The notes under the pieces: generated by a model | What the model saw: the letters and a program-made list of their open reading frames with translations, nothing else | Told to the model about the DNA's origin: nothing | Databases searched by the model: none | From: Lyngbya sp. HA4199-MV5 | GTDB taxonomy: Bacteria; Cyanobacteriota; Cyanobacteriia; Leptolyngbyales; Leptolyngbyaceae | Assembly: GCA_019359375.1 (NCBI GenBank) | Contig: JAHHHL010000016.1 | Coordinates: 62,001 to 126,000 of the forward strand | Direction: 5' to 3' | DNA length: 64,000 bases | Program-made: the position numbers and the translations under genes | Shown: one piece after another, positions 5,623 to 60,550 of the stretch | How the letters are laid out: every line of letters starts with the position of its first letter | How positions within the stretch are numbered: position 1 is the first letter of the stretch

Positions 5623-5750
5623 CTAGGGGCTGTCATCAATGACTACTACACATGGCTTTCAGCAAGGGTTCCAGCCCCTAGCCGTGTGTTGGGGCGGGCG
5701 CGATCATGCTGATACTCAAGGCTTTGGAGCTAATTGATGACGCGCCCTAG
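5623..5750. mobile_element. MITE-like element, ~130-bp TA family, copy A
   Basis: The element spans 128 bp with imperfect terminal inverted repeats: CTAGGGGCTGTCATCAAT on the left, and the reverse complement of the right end reads CTAGGGCGCGTCATCAAT. The interior contains AGCAAGGGTTCCAGCCCCTA. Copies at 26507-26637 and 39356-39485 are closely similar and in the opposite orientation. The termini are flanked by TA, as in IS630/Tc1-type insertions. No transposase is encoded. Confidence 0.75.
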
Positions 5751-6717: not shown

Positions 6718-7028
6718 TCAGGGTTCGCCTCTGGAAACCGATTGTTTGGAATTTGTTCGGCTTCGGGACAGTCATCAGAAACGGCAGGCTCGACGTTGCC
6801 TTTGGGTACAGAGGCTAACTTCTGCGTGACGGCACCAATGCTCTCTAAGCGCACCATTTCTTCCCAAGAGCAGGTTTCGTCTTCTTCTTCGGTTTCGTAG
6901 CGCAGGGTCACTAAATCTCCTTCGATATCGAGGATGCGTGCCCGTTCAATCCACCGTTGCTGGTCCCGCAAGAAGATCCAGACTTCGCGACCGTCGCAAC
7001 ACAGTTGATAAATCTTGCGGTGTAACAT
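6714..7028 (-). CDS. Conserved cyanobacterial protein, DUF6679-like
   Basis: This acidic 104-residue soluble protein begins MLHRKIYQLCCDGREVWIF and contains the stretch RARILDIEGDLVTLRYETEE. It resembles a small beta-rich family restricted to cyanobacteria (DUF6679 from memory), with no known function. The conserved part covers about residues 1-75; the tail is Pro/Glu/Asn rich. AGGAG lies 8 bases upstream of the ATG. It converges on the cupin gene with a 4-base overlap. Confidence 0.65.
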   Translation of the reverse strand: MLHRKIYQLCCDGREVWIFLRDQQRWIERARILDIEGDLVTLRYETEEEDETCSWEEMVRLESIGAVTQKLASVPKGNVEPAVSDDCPEAEQIPNNRFPEANPD

Positions 7029-8492: not shown

Positions 8493-9581
8493 GGGCAGCG
8501 AGAATTGAAAGCAGCTTCCTTGACCATACTGACTCTGCACCTGGATGGTGCCGCCCTGAAGTTCGACCAGGCGGCGAGAAATGGCTAACCCAATCCCCGT
8601 GCCGCCAGAATTGCGATCGCGCGATCGATCCGATCGCCAGAATCGCTCAAAGACATGGGGCAGATCGTCTGCGGCAATGCCCTGACCAGTATCAGTCACC
8701 GCGATCCAAAGGTAGTTGTACTGCGTGTAGGCACGCACAGCGATCGTTCCCTGCTCGGTATAGCGCAAGGCGTTGCCCAACAAATTGATGAGTACCTGTT
8801 CTACCCGTGTGGGATCTGCCAGAACGGGAGGTAGGTCGGCGGGACAATCTAAATGCAGCACGGGACCTTCTTCTAGCAATTGATCAGAGAATTTTTGCAC
8901 CAGGGATGCCAGTAAGGGGCGCACATCAACCTTCTGCGTGCGTATGGGCAAATAGCCTGCTTCTGCCTGAGAAAGCTCTTGCAGGTCGTTGACAAGATGG
9001 CGCAGGCGAGCCGTTTCCCTGGCAAGTCGCTGGTAGGTCTCCACTGAGGGGTCGATCGTGCCATCTGCCAGACCCTCCAAATACCCTTCAACGACGGTTA
9101 GTGGGGTTCGTAGCTCGTGCGTTAAATCGCTGACCAGTTCACGCCGTCGTTGCTCGACCCCTTCCAGGTTCGATGCCATGTGGTTAAAACTGAGCGCTAG
9201 ACGGTTTAGCTCTGGAATATCGCTTTTGGGCAACCGTTCTTCTAGATGCCCTGCCGCGAGCTTTTGCGTGACTTCCTCCATTTGAACAAGGGGATGCATG
9301 ATGCGTTTTGCCACCAGATAGCTCAGCCCACCCGCCGCTGTACCGCCGATCGCCACTGACCAGAGTGCTCCTCGACTCCAGGCTGACTCAAATCCCTCCG
9401 TTAACTCCTGCCGGAACAACGTGAGCAGGTTAGAACCGCTTCCCTCCTCCAGTTTTTCGAGGTGCAGCACGAAGAGGCGTGGAGAATACAGCTTGCCCAC
9501 GGTCAGCAGCGTACTTAAGCCCACAATCATGACAATGAGATGGGAGAGGAATAGGCGGGTTCGCAGTCCAAGTCGAGACAT
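8484..9581 (-). CDS. Membrane sensor histidine kinase (HAMP-HisKA-HATPase)
   Basis: The 365-residue kinase has two membrane helices (about 9-29 and 72-92) around a short external loop. A HAMP linker (about 93-145), a dimerisation domain with the phospho-accepting His155 in SDLTHELRTPL, and an ATP-binding domain follow, with N box NLLGNALRYT, G1 DTGQGIA and G2 GGTGIGLAIS. It should phosphorylate a response regulator, but none is encoded nearby, so it is an orphan here. The 40-residue sensor loop gives no hint of the signal. The ATG is directly preceded by a pyrimidine-rich repeat with no Shine-Dalgarno sequence. Confidence 0.9.
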   Translation of the reverse strand: MSRLGLRTRLFLSHLIVMIVGLSTLLTVGKLYSPRLFVLHLEKLEEGSGSNLLTLFRQELTEGFESAWSRGALWSVAIGGTAAGGLSYLVAKRIMHPLVQMEEVTQKLAAGHLEERLPKSDIPELNRLALSFNHMASNLEGVEQRRRELVSDLTHELRTPLTVVEGYLEGLADGTIDPSVETYQRLARETARLRHLVNDLQELSQAEAGYLPIRTQKVDVRPLLASLVQKFSDQLLEEGPVLHLDCPADLPPVLADPTRVEQVLINLLGNALRYTEQGTIAVRAYTQYNYLWIAVTDTGQGIAADDLPHVFERFWRSDRSRDRNSGGTGIGLAISRRLVELQGGTIQVQSQYGQGSCFQFSLPLA

Positions 9582-9750
9582 GAGGGGTGAGGAGAGAGGA
9601 GAGAGGGGTGAGGGGTGAGGAGAGAGGCAAGAGAGTTTTTGGTTTTTAGTTTTATAGCCCTAAAGCCTTGCGGCATAACAGAAATGGGCATTCAAAAAAA
9701 GTTTTTAGAAGGAGTCAAGAACAGCTCATGCACTAACAACTAACAACTAA
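9582..9750. repeat. STRR-type purine/pyrimidine repeat block upstream of the kinase
   Basis: GAGGGGTGAGGAGAGAGG-type iterations (9582-9630) are followed by GTTTTTGGTTTTTAG (near 9640), and then by a segment (about 9703-9750) shared with about 23964-24025 that includes AACAGCTCATGCACTAACAAC. The block abuts the kinase start codon and is interrupted on its right by the 124-bp element. Confidence 0.65.
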
Positions 9751-9874
9751 GGAATGAGAATTAAATAAGATCGACTTTTGGTAGGTTGGGTTGAGGTACG
9801 AAACCCAACGCCCCGGAGATGTTGGGTTTCGCCAAGCTCAACCCAACCTACACAGATTATTTAATCCACGATCC
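9751..9874. mobile_element. MITE-like element, ~124-bp TAA family, copy 1
   Basis: The ends are inverted: GGAATGAGAATTAAATAA on the left, and the reverse complement of the right end is GGATCGTGGATTAAATAA. The centre is the palindromic GTAGGTTGGGTTGAG...CTCAACCCAACCTAC. TAA flanks both sides. The second copy at 30820-30942 is inverted relative to this one. Here the element splits a CTAACAACTAACAACTAA repeat, which is good evidence of insertion. Confidence 0.75.
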
Positions 9875-10063
9875 TAACAACTAACAACTCTTGATCTGAC
9901 CGCTGATAGCTGACCGCTAAATTTCTGATCAGTTCTGTTGTTTGTCTGTTTGATCGGGCGTTCCCTTTAATCCTCCTCGATCGAGATTCAGTCTGCACGT
10001 CTAAGGCATGAAGCTTCCATTCTAGAAGTGCTATAAATCGAACTAGACGCTTATCCTTTGCCT

Positions 10064-12790: not shown

Positions 12791-14014
12791 ATGACAGCCA
12801 TTTCAGATATCGTCGTCATCGGTGGAGGCGCGATCGGCTTGGCGCTCGCCCTTGAACTGCGTCTACAGGGCGCATCCGTAACCCTTCTCAGCCGTGATCT
12901 CGCTCAAGCTGCCAGTCATGCGGCAGCAGGCATGTTAGCACCGCAAGCAGAACAGCTTTCTCCCGGTGCCATGCTGGAGCTTTGCCTGCGGAGTCGATCG
13001 CTCTACCCAGACTGGACGCAAAAACTGGAAGCCTTAACGGGATTGCCAACGGGCTACTGGGCGTGCGGCATTCTAGCGCCGGTGTATGAAGAGGCAGAAG
13101 GCAGAAGGGAAGAGAGGAGAAAGGGGAGAGGAGAGAGGAGAAAAGCAGGAGAGGTAGGGGGAGCAAGGGAGGATAGGGAGACACGGGGACACGGAGACAC
13201 GGAGATAAGAACAACTCAAAACTCAAAACTTCCACCCCCCACTCCCTACTCCCTACTCCCCACTCCCGCCCACTGGCTCGATCGCGCCTCCATCCATCAC
13301 CAACACCCCGGCTTAAGCAAAGAAGTCATCGGCGGTTGGTGGTATCCCAAAGATGCTCAAGTGGATAATCGATCGCTGACCAAAGCGCTGTGGGTCGCTG
13401 TCCGAGAGGCGGGTGTTGATGTGCAGAAAGGCGTTATCGTTCAAGCCATGCTGTACCAGGGTAGGCAAATCAGCGGGCTACAAACGTCAAACGGCACCTT
13501 CCAGTCGGGACATTACGTGCTGGCAACGGGTGCCTGGTCGCAGGATGTGCTGCCGCTTCCTGTCACGCCGCGCAAGGGACAAATGCTATCGGTACAGGTT
13601 CCGGCTGGTCAAACGTTGCCGTTACAAACCGTGTTGTTTGGCAGCGAAATCTACATCGTGCCCCGACAAGATGGGCGGATCATCATCGGCGCGACGAGTG
13701 AGGATGTTGGTTTTACGCCCGACAATACACCTGAAGGCGTGCAGGCATTGTGGGCGCGATCGCTCCGCCTCTATCCAGCCTTACAACAGTTTCCGATGCA
13801 AGAATGTTGGTGGGGCTTTCGCCCTGCCACACCCGATGAGTTGCCGCTGCTAGGTGCCAGCCCTTACGATAATCTGACACTGGCGACAGGGCATTATCGC
13901 AATGGCATTCTGCTGGCTCCCGTGACGGCGCAACTGATGACCGATCGTATCCTGCATCAACGATCTGATCCATTAGTAGAAGCCTTCCACTGGTCACGAT
14001 TCCGTACCGATTAG
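12791..14014 (+). CDS. thiO: Glycine oxidase ThiO with an internal repeat-derived insertion
   Basis: ThiO is a FAD enzyme that oxidises glycine to dehydroglycine (iminoglycine), the precursor used by ThiG for the thiazole of thiamine. The FAD-binding motif VVIGGGAIGLALALEL is at the N terminus, AAAGMLAPQAE follows, and GGWWYPKDAQVDNRSL, NGTFQSGHYVLATGAWS, RKGQM and ATGHYRNGILLAP are typical of ThiO. The ORF is 407 residues. About 58 of them (near residues 100-158, DNA 13091-13270) are a Glu/Arg/Gly-rich and Pro/Thr-rich insertion encoded by a dispersed repeat; without it the length is the usual ~350. The frame stays open across the insertion. Many cyanobacteria have ThiO fused to ThiG; here thiG is separate, 4.9 kb downstream. 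Confidence 0.92.
   Translation: MTAISDIVVIGGGAIGLALALELRLQGASVTLLSRDLAQAASHAAAGMLAPQAEQLSPGAMLELCLRSRSLYPDWTQKLEALTGLPTGYWACGILAPVYEEAEGRREERRKGRGERRKAGEVGGAREDRETRGHGDTEIRTTQNSKLPPPTPYSLLPTPAHWLDRASIHHQHPGLSKEVIGGWWYPKDAQVDNRSLTKALWVAVREAGVDVQKGVIVQAMLYQGRQISGLQTSNGTFQSGHYVLATGAWSQDVLPLPVTPRKGQMLSVQVPAGQTLPLQTVLFGSEIYIVPRQDGRIIIGATSEDVGFTPDNTPEGVQALWARSLRLYPALQQFPMQECWWGFRPATPDELPLLGASPYDNLTLATGHYRNGILLAPVTAQLMTDRILHQRSDPLVEAFHWSRFRTD
13091..13270 (+). repeat. STRR-type repeat inserted in frame in thiO
   Basis: A purine-rich half (GGCAGAAGGCAGAAGGGAAG and similar) leads to the centre AACTCAAAACTCAAAACT, followed by the pyrimidine heptamers ACTCCCT/ACTCCCC. The same three-part structure is intergenic near 23.1 kb and is inside speA at 52541-52693. 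In both genes the centre is read in the same frame, giving KTQNS or TTQNS. Confidence 0.85.
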
Positions 14015-23086: not shown

Positions 23087-23446
23087 GGAGGGTGGGGAGT
23101 AGGGAGTAGGGAGTAGGGTAAAGGCTAAAGGCTAAAGAACTGACCATTGACCGCGCAATCAACTCAAAACTCAAAACTCAAAACTCAAAACTTTCTCACT
23201 CCTCACCCCCTGATTGACTGACAAAAGTCTTGAAAGGTTGGTCGCTTCGTTGCTCACCCGCCCGTGATTCAAATCCGGGCTAAGGGTGCGAAACCCGTTC
23301 AAACGGGTTGTCAGGCGCTCGTAGTCCTCTTGAGAGGACTTTCTGCCATTAGCCCGCACTTTCAGTGCAGGACGGTTCAAGTACTTGCTCAAAGATTTGT
23401 CAGTCAACCAGCCTCATCCCTCTCTCCTCTCTCCTCTCCTCCCACC
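23087..23446. repeat. STRR-type repeat region interrupted by a 202-bp element
   Basis: GGGGAGTAGGGAGTAGGGAG (from about 23093), AAGGCTAAAGGCTAAAG, the centre AACTCAAAACTCAAAACT (23161-23190) and pyrimidine CTCACTCCTCACCCC form the same three-part structure found inside thiO and speA. The 202-bp element (23210-23411) is inserted in the pyrimidine-rich part. The remainder, TCCCTCTCTCCTCTCTCC, abuts the start codon of the DinB-type gene. Confidence 0.75.
23210..23411. mobile_element. 202-bp MITE-like element, copy 1
   Basis: The terminal inverted repeats are 16 bp with one mismatch (CTGATTGACTGACAAA on the left; the reverse complement of the right end is CTGGTTGACTGACAAA). Internal hairpins include AACCCGTTCAAACGGGTT, AGTCCTCTTGAGAGGACT and a CCCGCACT/AGTGCAGG stem. 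It is flanked by CCTCACCCC (23201-23209) and CCTCATCCC (23412-23420), an 8/9 target duplication. It matches the inverted copy at 43737-43938 at 192 of 202 positions without gaps. It encodes no transposase. Confidence 0.88.
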
Positions 23447-26506: not shown

Positions 26507-26637
26507 CTAGGGCGTGTCATCAATTAGCTCCAAAACCTTGCAATATCAGCAGTGTCACGCCCGTCCCAACACACCAAGCTAGGGGCTGAAACCCTTGCTG
26601 CAAGAAATATGTAGTATTAATTGATGACAGCCCCCAG
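26507..26637. mobile_element. MITE-like element, ~130-bp TA family, copy B
   Basis: It begins CTAGGGCGTGTCATCAAT and ends ATTGATGACAGCCCCCAG. The interior GTCCCAACACACCAAGCTAG and CTTGCTG match copies A and C. The orientation is as copy C. The right flank is CA rather than TA, so this end has probably mutated. It starts 9 bases after the AsnB-like stop codon. The following 26638-26814 contains the 30-bp repeat 26689-26718 and the promoter region of the radical SAM gene. Confidence 0.75.
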
Positions 26638-30701: not shown

Positions 30702-30819
30702 GCTGCCAACTACCTGTAATTCCCTATAAAGATTTTGGCGCATGGTGGTTGGATTAGCGATCGTCGTTTCATAAGAAATGGGTGCTGCACTATCAGACAC
30801 AGCACCCGTCCGCTTCTAA

Positions 30820-30942
30820 GGATCGTGGATTAAATAACTTGCGTAGGTTGGGTTGAGTCCGCGAAACCCAACATTTTTCGGAGTGTTGGGTTTCATACTT
30901 CAACCCAACCTACTCAGGTCGATGTTATTCAATTCTTGCTCC
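30820..30942. mobile_element. MITE-like element, ~124-bp TAA family, copy 2
   Basis: It begins GGATCGTGGATTAAATAA and ends in the inverted form of GGAGCAAGAATTGAATAA. The centre is the palindrome CGTAGGTTGGGTTGAG...TTCAACCCAACCTAC. TAA lies on both sides. It is inverted relative to 9751-9874. It is placed between the end of the giant gene and cysK. Confidence 0.75.
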
Positions 30943-39355: not shown

Positions 39356-39485
39356 TAGGGCGCGTCATCAATTAGCTCTAAAAGCTTGCGGTATCAGCAT
39401 CATCGCGCCCGTCCCAACACACCAGGCTAAGGGCTGGAACCCTTGCTGTCAGTGATATGTAGTCATCATTGATGACAGCCCCTAG
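39356..39485. mobile_element. MITE-like element, ~130-bp TA family, copy C
   Basis: It begins TTAGGGCGCGTCATCAATTA and ends TTGATGACAGCCCCTAG, with the family core GTCCCAACACACCAGGCTAA. TA flanks both ends. It fills most of the 321-base gap between the giant gene start and the GFA gene, about 185 bases upstream of the giant gene. The remaining 39172-39355 should contain that gene's promoter; nothing else was recognised. Confidence 0.75.
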
Positions 39486-52222: not shown

Positions 52223-54388
52223 TCACGCAGAGAGGTAGGTGTAGCGGCTCAAGCTCCGCTCGTAGTTTTGCAGCAGCAGTTGGGAGTCTTGCAGGGTAAT
52301 GCGCTTTTCTCGGAGTGCCAGTTCGGTTTGCTGACGGATGCTTTCGATGAGATCTTCGGAGTCGTACTGGACGTAACCCAACACTTCCGTCATCGTGTCG
52401 CCTTTGACGACGTGTTCAATCTCGTAGCCTTTGGGCGTGAGGTGAATGTGTACCGCATTGGTATCGCCAAACAGGTTGTGCAGGTTGCCCATGATTTCCT
52501 GGTAGGCACCGCCGAGGAACATGCCCAGGTAGTAGGGTTCGTGGGAGTGGGGAGTGGGGAGTGGGGAGTGGGGAGTGGGGAGTGGGGAGTTTTGAGTTTT
52601 GAGTTCCTGCAATCCCCTTGCTCCCTCTGCCTCCCTATCTTCCCCTGCTGCCCCTGCTCCCTCTGCCCTCTGCCCTCTGCCTTCTGCCTTCCTAAGTGGA
52701 TGCAATTCTAAAACAGGTTTTACATCTTTCAAATCGATGAATTGATCAATTTTGCCGTCGCTGTCGCAGGTGAGGTCGGCGAGGGTAGCGCGTTGGGCGG
52801 GTTCTTCATCCAGGCGATGGATGGGCATGATGGGGAAGAGTTGGTCGATCGCCCAGCTATCGGGTGCCGATTGGAAGACGGATAGATTGATGTAGTAGAT
52901 CGATGCCATGATCTTTTCCAGATCTTCCAAGTCATCGGGGACGTATTCTTGCTGACGAGCGATCGCCAGAATTTTCTCACAGCAAACCCAGTAGAGGCGT
53001 TCGGCTCTGGCGCGTTCGGGCAAGCTGACGTAGCCGAAGTTAAACAGGCTAATGGCTTCTTCTTTGAACTGAGTGGCATCGTGGTATGCCTCCTGATAGT
53101 TCTCGACGGTGATGGATTCGTAGGTTTCGTAAAGGTTGCGGATGATGAGATGTTCGGTTTCCTGGACGGGTTCCGGTATGCCAGAGGGCACTTCGCTGGT
53201 GCTGAGGACATTGAACACGAGGACGGATTGATGGGATGCGATCGCCCGCCCACTTTCGCTTACCAGCGTGGGGACAGGTAACTTACGCTCATCGCAGGCT
53301 TCTTTGACTTCCGCAATGACATCGTTCGCGTAATTCTGCATGTTGTAGTTTTTGGAGGCGTAGAAGTTGGTTTTGGAGCCGTCGTAATCCACGCCCAACC
53401 CGCCGCCCACATCCAGGTACTTCATGTCTGCGCCTAGTTTTGCCAGTTCGACATAAATTTGACTTGCCTCTTGAATGGCGGTTTTGACCACGGCGATCGA
53501 CGAGATTTGGGAACCGATGTGGTAGTGCAGCAGTTGTAGCGAGTCCAGCATGTTTGCTGCGCTGAGTTGCTCCACCGTGCTAAGAATTTCGGGAACGGTT
53601 AAGCCAAACTTGGCGCGATCGCCGGCTGAGGTACCCCAGCGTCCCACGCCTTTGCTGCTAAGTTTGGCACGCACACCCAGGATGGGACGAATGCCCAATT
53701 TGCGACCCGCTTCAATGACCAGCGGCACTTCTTCAATTTGTTCCAGCACGATGATCGGGGTTTGCCCCAACTGCTGTGCCAGAATTGCCATTTCAACGTA
53801 TTCCCGGTCTTTGTAGCCGTTGCAAATCAGCAAAGCACCAGGAGTCTTAAGCGTTGCCAGGGCAATCATGAGTTCAGGCTTTGATCCCGCTTCTAAGCCG
53901 AACTGGTGGGGCTTACCAAAGCGAACCAGATCTTCGACCAGATGCCGCTGCTGGTTGCACTTAACGGGAAAGACCCCGCGATAGACACCGGGATAGTTGT
54001 AGCGAGCGATCGCTTTAGCAAACACGGCATTTAACCGCTCAATTCGATCTTCGAGAATGTCTGAGAAGCGGATTAGCAGCGGCAAGCCCAAATTCCGCTG
54101 TTTGAGGGCATTCACAAGGTCAAAGAGATCCAGGGAGCCACCCCGATCGCCTTCGGGAGAAACGGTGACGTGTCCGGCAGCGTTGATCGAAAAGTAGGGT
54201 TCGCCCCAACCCGTAATGCGGTAGAGTTCCTCACTTTTTTCGATCGACCAGGTAGGGGTGGAGCCGTTGCCGTTGGTTTCAGTGGTACCGTTACTCGATT
54301 GTGCAGCAGCCTTTCCGGTTGCGCGATCGGTTACCTCGATCTCACCCTTCTCTGAACCAGCCTTCGCAGCGGTTGACCGTGCCCCCAT
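52223..54388 (-). CDS. speA: Biosynthetic arginine decarboxylase SpeA with a repeat-derived insertion
   Basis: SpeA converts arginine to agmatine, the first step of polyamine synthesis, with PLP. The PLP lysine is in FPVKCNQQRHLVEDL; GLEAGSKPELMIAL and LHYHIGSQISSIA are alanine-racemase-fold motifs. YLDVGGGLGVDYDGS and the C-terminal beta domain follow. The ORF is 721 residues. About 51 of them (DNA 52541-52693) are a Glu/Gly/Arg-rich and Pro/Thr/Ser-rich insertion between LELHPL and EPYYLGMFLGGAYQEIMGN. It is encoded by the repeat also found in thiO, and the frame is intact. ATG 54388 has AGGA upstream; the first ~50 residues are low-complexity. Confidence 0.93.
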   Translation of the reverse strand: MGARSTAAKAGSEKGEIEVTDRATGKAAAQSSNGTTETNGNGSTPTWSIEKSEELYRITGWGEPYFSINAAGHVTVSPEGDRGGSLDLFDLVNALKQRNLGLPLLIRFSDILEDRIERLNAVFAKAIARYNYPGVYRGVFPVKCNQQRHLVEDLVRFGKPHQFGLEAGSKPELMIALATLKTPGALLICNGYKDREYVEMAILAQQLGQTPIIVLEQIEEVPLVIEAGRKLGIRPILGVRAKLSSKGVGRWGTSAGDRAKFGLTVPEILSTVEQLSAANMLDSLQLLHYHIGSQISSIAVVKTAIQEASQIYVELAKLGADMKYLDVGGGLGVDYDGSKTNFYASKNYNMQNYANDVIAEVKEACDERKLPVPTLVSESGRAIASHQSVLVFNVLSTSEVPSGIPEPVQETEHLIIRNLYETYESITVENYQEAYHDATQFKEEAISLFNFGYVSLPERARAERLYWVCCEKILAIARQQEYVPDDLEDLEKIMASIYYINLSVFQSAPDSWAIDQLFPIMPIHRLDEEPAQRATLADLTCDSDGKIDQFIDLKDVKPVLELHPLRKAEGRGQRAEGAGAAGEDREAEGARGLQELKTQNSPLPTPHSPLPTPHSHEPYYLGMFLGGAYQEIMGNLHNLFGDTNAVHIHLTPKGYEIEHVVKGDTMTEVLGYVQYDSEDLIESIRQQTELALREKRITLQDSQLLLQNYERSLSRYTYLSA
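52541..52693 (-). repeat. STRR-type repeat inserted in frame in speA
   Basis: Read on the coding (minus) strand it runs purine-rich (AAGGCAGAAGGCAGAGGGCA), centre AACTCAAAACTC, then CCCACTC heptamers. The order and reading frame are those in thiO, and the centre again gives LKTQNS. The length is a multiple of three. Confidence 0.85.
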
Positions 54389-54472
54389 TGTTTCCTGCCC
54401 TCGCGATCGTTCTTGAAGTGCTAGTCTATCGCATCCCTTCTGCTGTCGGAGGTAAGGCAGGGCACTCAACGG

Positions 54473-59149: not shown

Positions 59150-59212
<63 letters not shown>

Positions 59213-59235
<23 letters not shown>

Positions 59236-60136: not shown

Positions 60137-60550
60137 GGAGGAAGGCAAGGGGCAGAGGGGACAGGGGAGGCAGGGGGCAGGGGGCAGAAGGGATGAGGGG
60201 TGAGGGATGAAAGTTAAGAATCAATCAGCGATCGGTTTTTTAGCTTTTAGCCTTTCCTACTCCCCACTCCCTACTCCCCACTCCCCACCCCTCACTCCTT
60301 ACCCCTCACCTCTCACTTCTTACTAAGAGCATTCGACCCTACTCTATCGTTTTCCTTTCAAAGCTTGATGACGATCGCCGTTAGCTTCGACACCTTCTCT
60401 GGTCGAACAGTCCCTATAATCTAAGAGAATGCTGCATAAGTTGTTGGTTTTAAGTTGTTAGTTGTTAGACATCCTCTTCACTAACAACCAAAAACTAAAA
60501 ACTAAAAACTGAGAACTAATCCAACTGCCGACACAGGAGACTGTCCATCT
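60137..60550. repeat. STRR-type repeats between rsmH and ndhH
   Basis: A purine-rich half (GGCAGGGGGCAGGGGGCAG, 60137-60210) is followed by TTTTTTAGCTTTTAGCC and a pyrimidine half (ACTCCCTACTCCCC and CCTCACTCC, to about 60335). A second unit at about 60440-60520 has AGTTGTTAGTTGTTAG facing CTAACAACC and AAAAACTAAAAACT. The divergent promoters of rsmH and ndhH must lie between 60335 and 60440 or within the repeats. Confidence 0.7.

Follow-up and report, generated by a model that had tools for sequence, protein, structure and literature searches.

The stretch of DNA analysed here, referred to as the window, comprises 64,000 nucleotides of Lyngbya sp. HA4199-MV5 (contig JAHHHL010000016.1, positions 62,001 to 126,000) and carries speA, the gene for biosynthetic arginine decarboxylase, with an array of seven-base repeats inserted in frame. 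An earlier note, made from the sequence alone, had placed a repeat segment in speA at 52541-52693; we confirmed it on the minus (coding) strand, together with the order described there, i.e., a purine half, a centre of the AACTCAAAACTC type and pyrimidine heptamers (Table 1). Translation of the gene likely starts at the ATG at 54388, which gives a protein of 721 amino acids. SpeA has matches to the Pfam families Orn_Arg_deC_N, Arg_decarb_HB and Arg_decarbox_C, and to SpeA of E. coli (3nzq) with an E-value of 2e-149 (phmmer).

Between LELH and EPYYLGMFL the gene reads PLRKAEGRGQRAEGAGAAGEDREAEGARGLQELKTQNSPLPTPHSPLPTPHSH, and the program TRF finds a tandem period of 7 in the insert. Its unit is GGGGAGT, and not the GGGGATT or GGGGACT of Nostoc. 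In the phmmer alignment, 6 residues of E. coli SpeA (3nzq) stand at the position of the loop versus 54 in the SpeA of the window, an excess of about 48 codons; the insertion proposed earlier is thus real but somewhat smaller than the 51 extra codons given for it. The loop measures 53 residues in the genome of the window; among 99 distinct cyanobacterial SpeA rows it does not exceed 6 in 74, with 5 as the typical length. An assembly artefact is unlikely, because the SpeA proteins of all seven genomes of the genus have a loop of 20-53 residues at the same site. The insert appears to add a hydrophilic and probably floppy linker.

Table 1. Heptamer arrays in the window and the genes that host them (positions within the window)
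Feature	Positions	Strand	Remarks
speA, biosynthetic arginine decarboxylase	52223..54469	minus	748 codons from TTG
Heptamer-island insert, in frame, speA	52535..52696	minus	flanks LELHP / EPYYLGMFL
Purine half of speA insert, GGCAGAR / GGGRGCA units	52606..52693	minus	reads KAEGRGQRAEGAGAAGEDREAEGARGLQ
Centre of speA insert, AACTCAAAACTCAAAACTC	52587..52605	minus	ELKTQNS including edges
Pyrimidine half of speA insert, 6.9 perfect CACTCCC units	52543..52590	minus	reads SPLPTPHSPLPTPHS
thiO-type FAD oxidoreductase gene, host of second insert	12791..14014	plus	Pfam DAO match spans insert
Heptamer-island insert, in frame, thiO	13090..13267	plus	centre 13213-13231; reads TTQNSKL
Intergenic island (two open reading frames), same heptamer family	23092..23225	plus	GGGAGTA, GGCTAAA, four AACTCAA units
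Island of the same family	60162..60317	plus	purine, then pyrimidine heptamers
Pyrimidine heptamer array	59184..59229	plus	CACTCCT type
Heptamer array	9581..9653	plus	GAGAGGR type

With at most one mismatch, AACTCAAAACTC occurs eight times in the window versus 0.40 expected. The second gene of the earlier note is presumably thiO; the centre, which was said to read KTQNS in both genes, does so in SpeA but not in ThiO (Table 1). The window also contains three copies of a dispersed repeat of about 95 bp (CTAGGGCGTGTCATCAATTAGCTCC..., at 5660-5750, 26507-26604 and 39356-39448), the core 11-mer of which is counted 96 times on both strands of 1.59 Mb of the genome, and a second dispersed repeat with the arms TGTTGGGTTTC and CCCAACC (9820-9919 and 30819-30913).

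Heptamer islands in the genome and in host genes

The genome of the window (G000, 6.91 Mb) belongs to a genus that includes Stenomitos frigidus ULC18, S. rutilans and Leptolyngbya sp. FACHB-321, and contains AACTCAAAACTC at 258 places. The mirror of this pattern is found at 124 places, which is not a chance level, since AACTCAA is a mirror word within the same array; the usable chance level is the one given above for the window. Unbiased counts were taken from a contiguous sample of 1.59 Mb, in which the lag-7 signal marks 153 heptameric islands. Purine heptamers precede pyrimidine heptamers in 91 islands versus 12 with the opposite order (63 versus 0 with longer windows); around 103 centres, GGCAGRR is found 194 times before and seven times after, and YACTCCC five times before and 73 times after. 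An island is therefore built alike on both strands from purine heptamers, often a AACTCAAAACTC centre, and then pyrimidine heptamers, and this order says nothing about orientation relative to genes because the reverse complement preserves it.

Twenty-five of the 153 islands, in 22 host genes, lie in frame inside a gene with a coding signal on both flanks, and the other 128 were not classed in this way. The classification used bounds based on the islands themselves, as fixed flanks of ±110 nt had missed speA. Extrapolation gives about 109 in-gene islands per genome. Stop-to-stop frames of at least 200 codons cover about 74% of the sample, so that islands fall inside genes less often than this share would predict, which fits a loss of most in-gene insertions. 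The addition of stretches chosen by DNA pattern brought the set to 38 in-gene islands, and later stretches, together with stretches found by their peptides, brought the hosts to 39 open reading frames (ORFs), of which 30 were scanned with Pfam. These hosts, named beyond the Pfam titles by our own reading, include MutL, NAD-dependent DNA ligase (LigA), valyl-tRNA synthetase (ValS), PriA, a RadA-type protein, MutS2, a Clp ATPase, RsmG (GidB), MiaA, NAD synthetase, a diaminopimelate-type decarboxylase, squalene-hopene cyclase, a Mg-chelatase D-type protein, an ArsA ATPase, ThiO and SpeA. By our reading of the Pfam output, 25 of the 30 have matched residues both before and after the island, four of which rest on a second stretch without printed coordinates and one on a match below the curated cut-off; in the other five the island lies beyond the matched part or its position cannot be told.

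In the diaminopimelate-type decarboxylase (C55:304765-304908 of G000), the island lies in the N-terminal Orn_Arg_deC_N domain, a barrel that binds pyridoxal phosphate and is also present in SpeA, whereas the SpeA island sits in the C-terminal part. Four copies of AACTCAAAACTCT at an exact spacing of 123 nt occur in frames with a coding signal at C30:7465-7845 of G000; the three classed copies and a fourth at 6850 read ELKTL and appear to be an unrelated coding tandem repeat.

Within the class, AACTCAAAACTC is patchy: only four of 116 genomes have more than 100 places (G000, 258; G021, 260; G039, 176; G058, 115), and nearly all others have 30 or fewer (G063 has 51). A search with the sense peptide of the G000 heptamers, a query from which orientation cannot be judged, gave 109 matches in G010, from another genus of the same family. 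Of these, 39 fall in frames of 300 or more residues without a stop, as do three of the four matches in G019.

Shared sites and turnover in the genus

Seven genomes of the genus were surveyed for five host genes, all of which have a centre-bearing insert in the genome of the window. Seven orthologs each were recovered for SpeA, ThiO, LigA and ValS and six for MiaA (that of G006 was not recovered), and all 34 have a loop of at least 20 residues at the same site, while the rest of the host proteins is about 72-94% identical to those of the window genome. The 32 inserts that were extracted lack the SpeA of G004 and G005, which did not match the anchor pattern and are included in the loop count. 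Among the 32, 31 have a 7-base period, all contain more purine in their first half than in their second, and the grand average of hydropathy (GRAVY) is below -0.4 in 30; the ThiO of G003 has a long loop that lacks the period. The units themselves change at a given site: the SpeA insert is filled with GGCAGAR, AACTCAA and CACTCCC in G000, with AGTCAGR and CTAACAA in S. rutilans, and with GGATGA and CATCCCT in S. frigidus.

Long SpeA loops occur in 25 of the 99 rows, also outside the genus, where many have no heptamer signal. In a tree made with a quick method, the long loop requires at least six changes, at least four of which are forced by well-supported branches. For LigA, a heptameric loop is found in G018 and G023 and a weakly heptameric one in G019. 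From the tree and the LigA loops it follows that the sites are permissive and were filled more than once or long ago.

A palindrome-like sequence (TAGYG...GCGGCRC...GCTA) is nested in the AACTC centre of some in-gene islands and is still in frame. It was seen in LigA of G006 and G001, in MiaA of G002 and G001, and near 112831 of C3 in G000, codes for SLSAQSATQNS-like peptides and is perhaps a small dispersed repeat (SDR).

Reading phase, orientation and the encoded peptide

Since the numbers 7 and 3 have no common factor, a tandem 7-mer array has no phase of its own. When a 7-mer is repeated three or more times, all three phases are open if it lacks a stop and all three are closed if it bears one, which leaves no ground for the earlier suggestion that the repeat has a single open phase. 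Nor is the reading phase identical in the two genes, as had been claimed: the codon offset at the start of the centre is 1 in SpeA and 2 in ThiO, so that the registers differ by one base. Among the 17 in-gene centre islands, start offsets of 2, 1 and 0 were found in eight, four and five cases, compared with 7.7, 4.7 and 4.7 expected if the open phases were equally used, and a preferred start phase was rejected. The units are filtered for stops: stop-bearing arrays make up three of 104 arrays in genes versus 329 of 822 outside, the latter counted on both strands (p 2e-17). The central word AACTCAA is free of stops, and its complement TTGAGTT contains TGA.

A bias in orientation does exist genome-wide. 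Of 154 centre runs, five from peptide-search stretches, which are biased in sense and phase, and two near stretch ends were dropped; the remaining 147 were merged to 143 where runs shared an island, and islands shorter than 40 nt were left out, which removed seven sense runs within genes, four of them from the 123-nt tandem coding repeat of C30. The centre-bearing in-gene islands of at least 40 nt are all in sense (17 sense, 0 antisense). Scored by purine units, 29 of the 38 in-gene islands are sense, two antisense and seven neither. The same orientation asserted for speA and its companion gene thus holds far beyond the pair, although the purine-to-pyrimidine order offered in its support is symmetric between strands and uninformative. 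The test for orientation and phase bias, which had been proposed as a check, gives a divided answer in the islands analysed, with a bias in orientation, much of it explained by stop codons, and none in start phase.

The sense reading is hydrophilic, with peptides of the GRRQKAE, HSPLPTP and HPTPHTP types, and the reverse reading is rich in Cys, Trp, Leu and Val (FCLLPSA and GVWGVGC types). Averaged over open phases, the mean GRAVY is -1.47 for the sense reading of 38 in-gene islands versus -0.17 for 293 open frames outside genes (p 3e-10), and the sense reading is more hydrophilic than the open antisense reading of the same island in 22 of 24 islands.

Origin of the insert and comparison with known systems

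We consider it likely that the speA segment belongs, as one copy, to a cyanobacterial family of tandem-heptamer islands found throughout the genome, that it lies in frame in a permissive loop and is translated, and that the features observed, namely the layout, the in-frame state, the depletion of stops, the biased orientation, the hydrophilicity, the sites held in common and the turnover, reflect change at the DNA level combined with a filter at the protein level. Heptamer units would be gained and exchanged in the DNA regardless of reading frame, and in genes the filter would let those outcomes survive that are in frame, built from stop-free heptamers and hydrophilic. The same filter would give the sense orientation, and phase would hardly matter, since each of the three phases of a 7-mer array yields an identical set of residues. 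The insert sites would be old, being genus-wide in the genes checked, and unit exchange, possibly by slippage or between islands, would keep replacing the heptamers. That the linker is translated is suggested by the protein-level filter, and it would be disordered and located at the surface. Selection, one of the two causes proposed in the earlier note, finds support as selection on the inserted reading but not as selection for one open phase, and the directed mechanism, the other cause, is neither supported nor needed.

Several observations weigh against this account. The AlphaFold2 model of SpeA has a mean predicted local distance difference test score (pLDDT) of 58.4, with region 491-666 entirely below 50, and is too poor in the C-terminal third to place the loop. 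A short-loop baseline was set for two of the five genes, SpeA (5 residues) and LigA (down to 8 in the family). The AACTCAAAACTC-rich G021 gave two insert-peptide matches, both with stops, and the likewise rich G058 gave none, so that presence of the repeat need not lead to coding insertion. Two in-gene islands have pyrimidine units of the reverse type (C84:171801-171857 and C84:175155-175199 of G000; the ORF measures 1896 codons and contains four islands), and GGGGTGTG or GGGGAGTG is found in sense in MiaA and ValS of relatives, where they code for GVWGVGC and GSGEWGV. Finally, TQNS is encoded in all 17 in-gene centre islands versus 13 expected (probability 0.003), or 14.2 expected with fuller element extents (0.0185), even though many of these islands are open in other phases too; two of the 17 genes were the source of the motif, and without these two the probability with fuller extents is 0.037. 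This small excess is a weak, unexplained residue beyond the heptamer arithmetic and speaks for the earlier note.

The orientation might be forced by stop codons alone, with purine-only islands as remnants of complete sense elements and no selection on the peptide, which is possible if on the doubtful side. AACTCAA, CACTCCT, TACTCCC and CATCCCT have no stop forward and a stop in reverse only, and centre islands that lie outside genes are open in 72 of 300 phases in sense and in 24 of 300 in antisense. These open phases give a probability of 0.0075 (0.75^17) for 17 islands all in sense, which argues against stops as the sole cause, but the sequences of the in-gene islands themselves give 0.10 (0.085 with fuller extents), at which an all-sense outcome is unsurprising and our own account loses ground. 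On the centre-bearing islands alone, an orientation bias beyond stops is therefore suggestive, not proven. Units open on both strands are a further sign against the stop-only reading: the three GGCAGRR types form 43 sense and no antisense arrays in genes, where arrays within one island are not independent, and GGCAGRR/GGGRGCA units are in genes sense only in 28 islands, reverse only in two, both in one and neither in seven, versus 64, 55, 4 and 59 outside genes. Rarer two-strand-open heptamer pairs show sense-to-antisense ratios of 7:1, 8:0, 5:1, 1:2 and 2:1 in genes, along with three single cases; the antisense ones among them (one of eight, one of six, two of three and one of three) again do not favour a peptide filter. 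The orientation is most simply explained by selection acting on the peptide that the islands encode; complete sense elements that were later trimmed may be an alternative history. Unlikely, in our view, is an orientation set by purine loading of transcripts or another rule at the level of transcription. It would fit the islands 3' of genes, where purine units are sense in 38, antisense in six and unscored in 18 cases, and the placement of G-rich heptamers near stop codons on the coding strand and near start codons on the non-coding strand that is described for Nostoc and two Xanthomonas (PMC4692102), but the purine-to-pyrimidine layout is enough to produce both patterns. Islands upstream of genes number 12 sense to 17 antisense, and those between co-directional genes four to four with six unscored (n=14). 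The filter against stops and the shift in hydropathy are signals at the level of the protein.

A mobile hairpin whose halves pair, akin to a miniature inverted-repeat transposable element (MITE), a Rickettsia palindromic element (RPE) or a REPIN, and inserted by a transposase or a directed process, would account for the imperfect inverted layout, the dispersal and the palindromes nested in frame in some centres. In nine of 14 in-gene islands the own halves do fold better than swapped ones (mean -4.8 kcal/mol). Over all 92 centre islands, however, the swap test goes the wrong way, with the pairing energy lower for own halves in 32 and means of -24.47 kcal/mol for own versus -26.22 kcal/mol for foreign halves (Wilcoxon p 0.024 for weaker folding of own halves). 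Single-strand folds of the speA copy are likewise no better than those of its dinucleotide shuffles (z -1.0 as RNA, -0.6 as DNA), and the hairpin was rejected on these two results. There is no single consensus, and units differ between orthologs at one site, which makes such an element quite unlikely. For a repeat of the REPIN/RAYT type in particular, hairpin pairing is unsupported over the same 92 islands, and no search for a RAYT gene was made. It is highly improbable that the insert is removed or skipped, by RNA splicing, protein splicing or ribosomal bypass, and tolerated by essential enzymes for that reason. Inserts do lie within or between conserved domains, e.g., in NAD-dependent DNA ligase and valyl-tRNA synthetase, but removal would require none of the in-frame, stop-free and hydrophilic properties of the insert, and conserved insert ends are absent across the orthologs of the five genes (compared by eye, with no intein or intron model search).

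A bolder reading, which we hold to be doubtful, would see more than tolerated leftovers in the intragenic islands: they would occupy fixed "dock" sites in core enzymes that the genus keeps filled, and the repeat pool would act as a proteome-wide supply of hydrophilic linkers, maintained because the protein benefits or replenished at a rate above that of loss. Heptamers would be continually replaced from the genome-wide pool, yet not one of the 34 orthologs of the five genes has a loop below 20 residues. Independent of this reading, what looked like a curiosity of two genes is a proteome-wide pattern of, by extrapolation, roughly a hundred in-frame islands, several of them in hardly dispensable enzymes. 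One site with many fillings offers a natural series on how disordered protein segments originate from non-coding repeats and which filters they pass, and the 7-versus-3 arithmetic supplies a clean reason for a biased orientation without a biased phase.

Among known repeats, the short tandemly repeated repetitive (STRR) heptanucleotides in rnpB of heterocyst-forming cyanobacteria, reportedly described by Vioque in 1997, share with the islands their 7-bp tandem units. The islands are dispersed and mostly outside genes; a difference is that in this lineage, which is of the Leptolyngbya type, many housekeeping protein genes carry them in frame. The comparison with STRR-like repeats covers unit length, tandem arrangement and placement. 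SDRs of Nostoc punctiforme reportedly lie often within heptameric arrays (Elhai, in 2008), and the palindromes nested in AACTC centres resemble this placement. An intron RNA hairpin with degenerate heptamers likewise fills a variable loop of a conserved gene and varies in length by repeat number and indels; there the loop is RNA, whereas in the islands it would be a loop of a translated protein.

Among openly licensed PMC papers we found none that reports heptamer islands lying in frame in housekeeping genes of cyanobacteria, at sites that relatives share while the content changes. PMC4692102 mentions heptamers of Calothrix PCC 7601 and describes the GGGNATC and GGGGA(C/T)T heptamers of Xanthomonas and Nostoc, which are G-rich, genome-wide and mostly intergenic; those of Nostoc are 68% intergenic, with an intragenic share notably above that of Xanthomonas. 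Like the islands, these are G-rich 7-mers with the G-rich strand toward gene 3' ends (PMC4692102), but the islands join GGCAGRR, GGGAGTR, AACTCAA and other units in a fixed order, and the parts of that paper considered here treat one unit, without reading frames, encoded peptides or shared sites. RPEs resemble the islands in their placement, as small repeats in frame in conserved protein genes, comparable to the island hosts with Pfam matches on both sides. According to the review PMC2229807, they occur in 19 reading frames and also in RNA genes, measure 105-146 bp and are modelled as long stem-loops with terminal inverted repeats, and an RPE-bearing Gmk is translated and active with a changed substrate affinity. 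In contrast to the long stem-loop of an RPE, the halves of an island show no specific pairing and its units turn over at fixed sites. Heptamers of cyanobacteria, some of them intragenic, and small in-frame repeats in Rickettsia were thus already known; persistent, self-remodelling coding heptamer islands in housekeeping genes appear to be a new form of such repeats.

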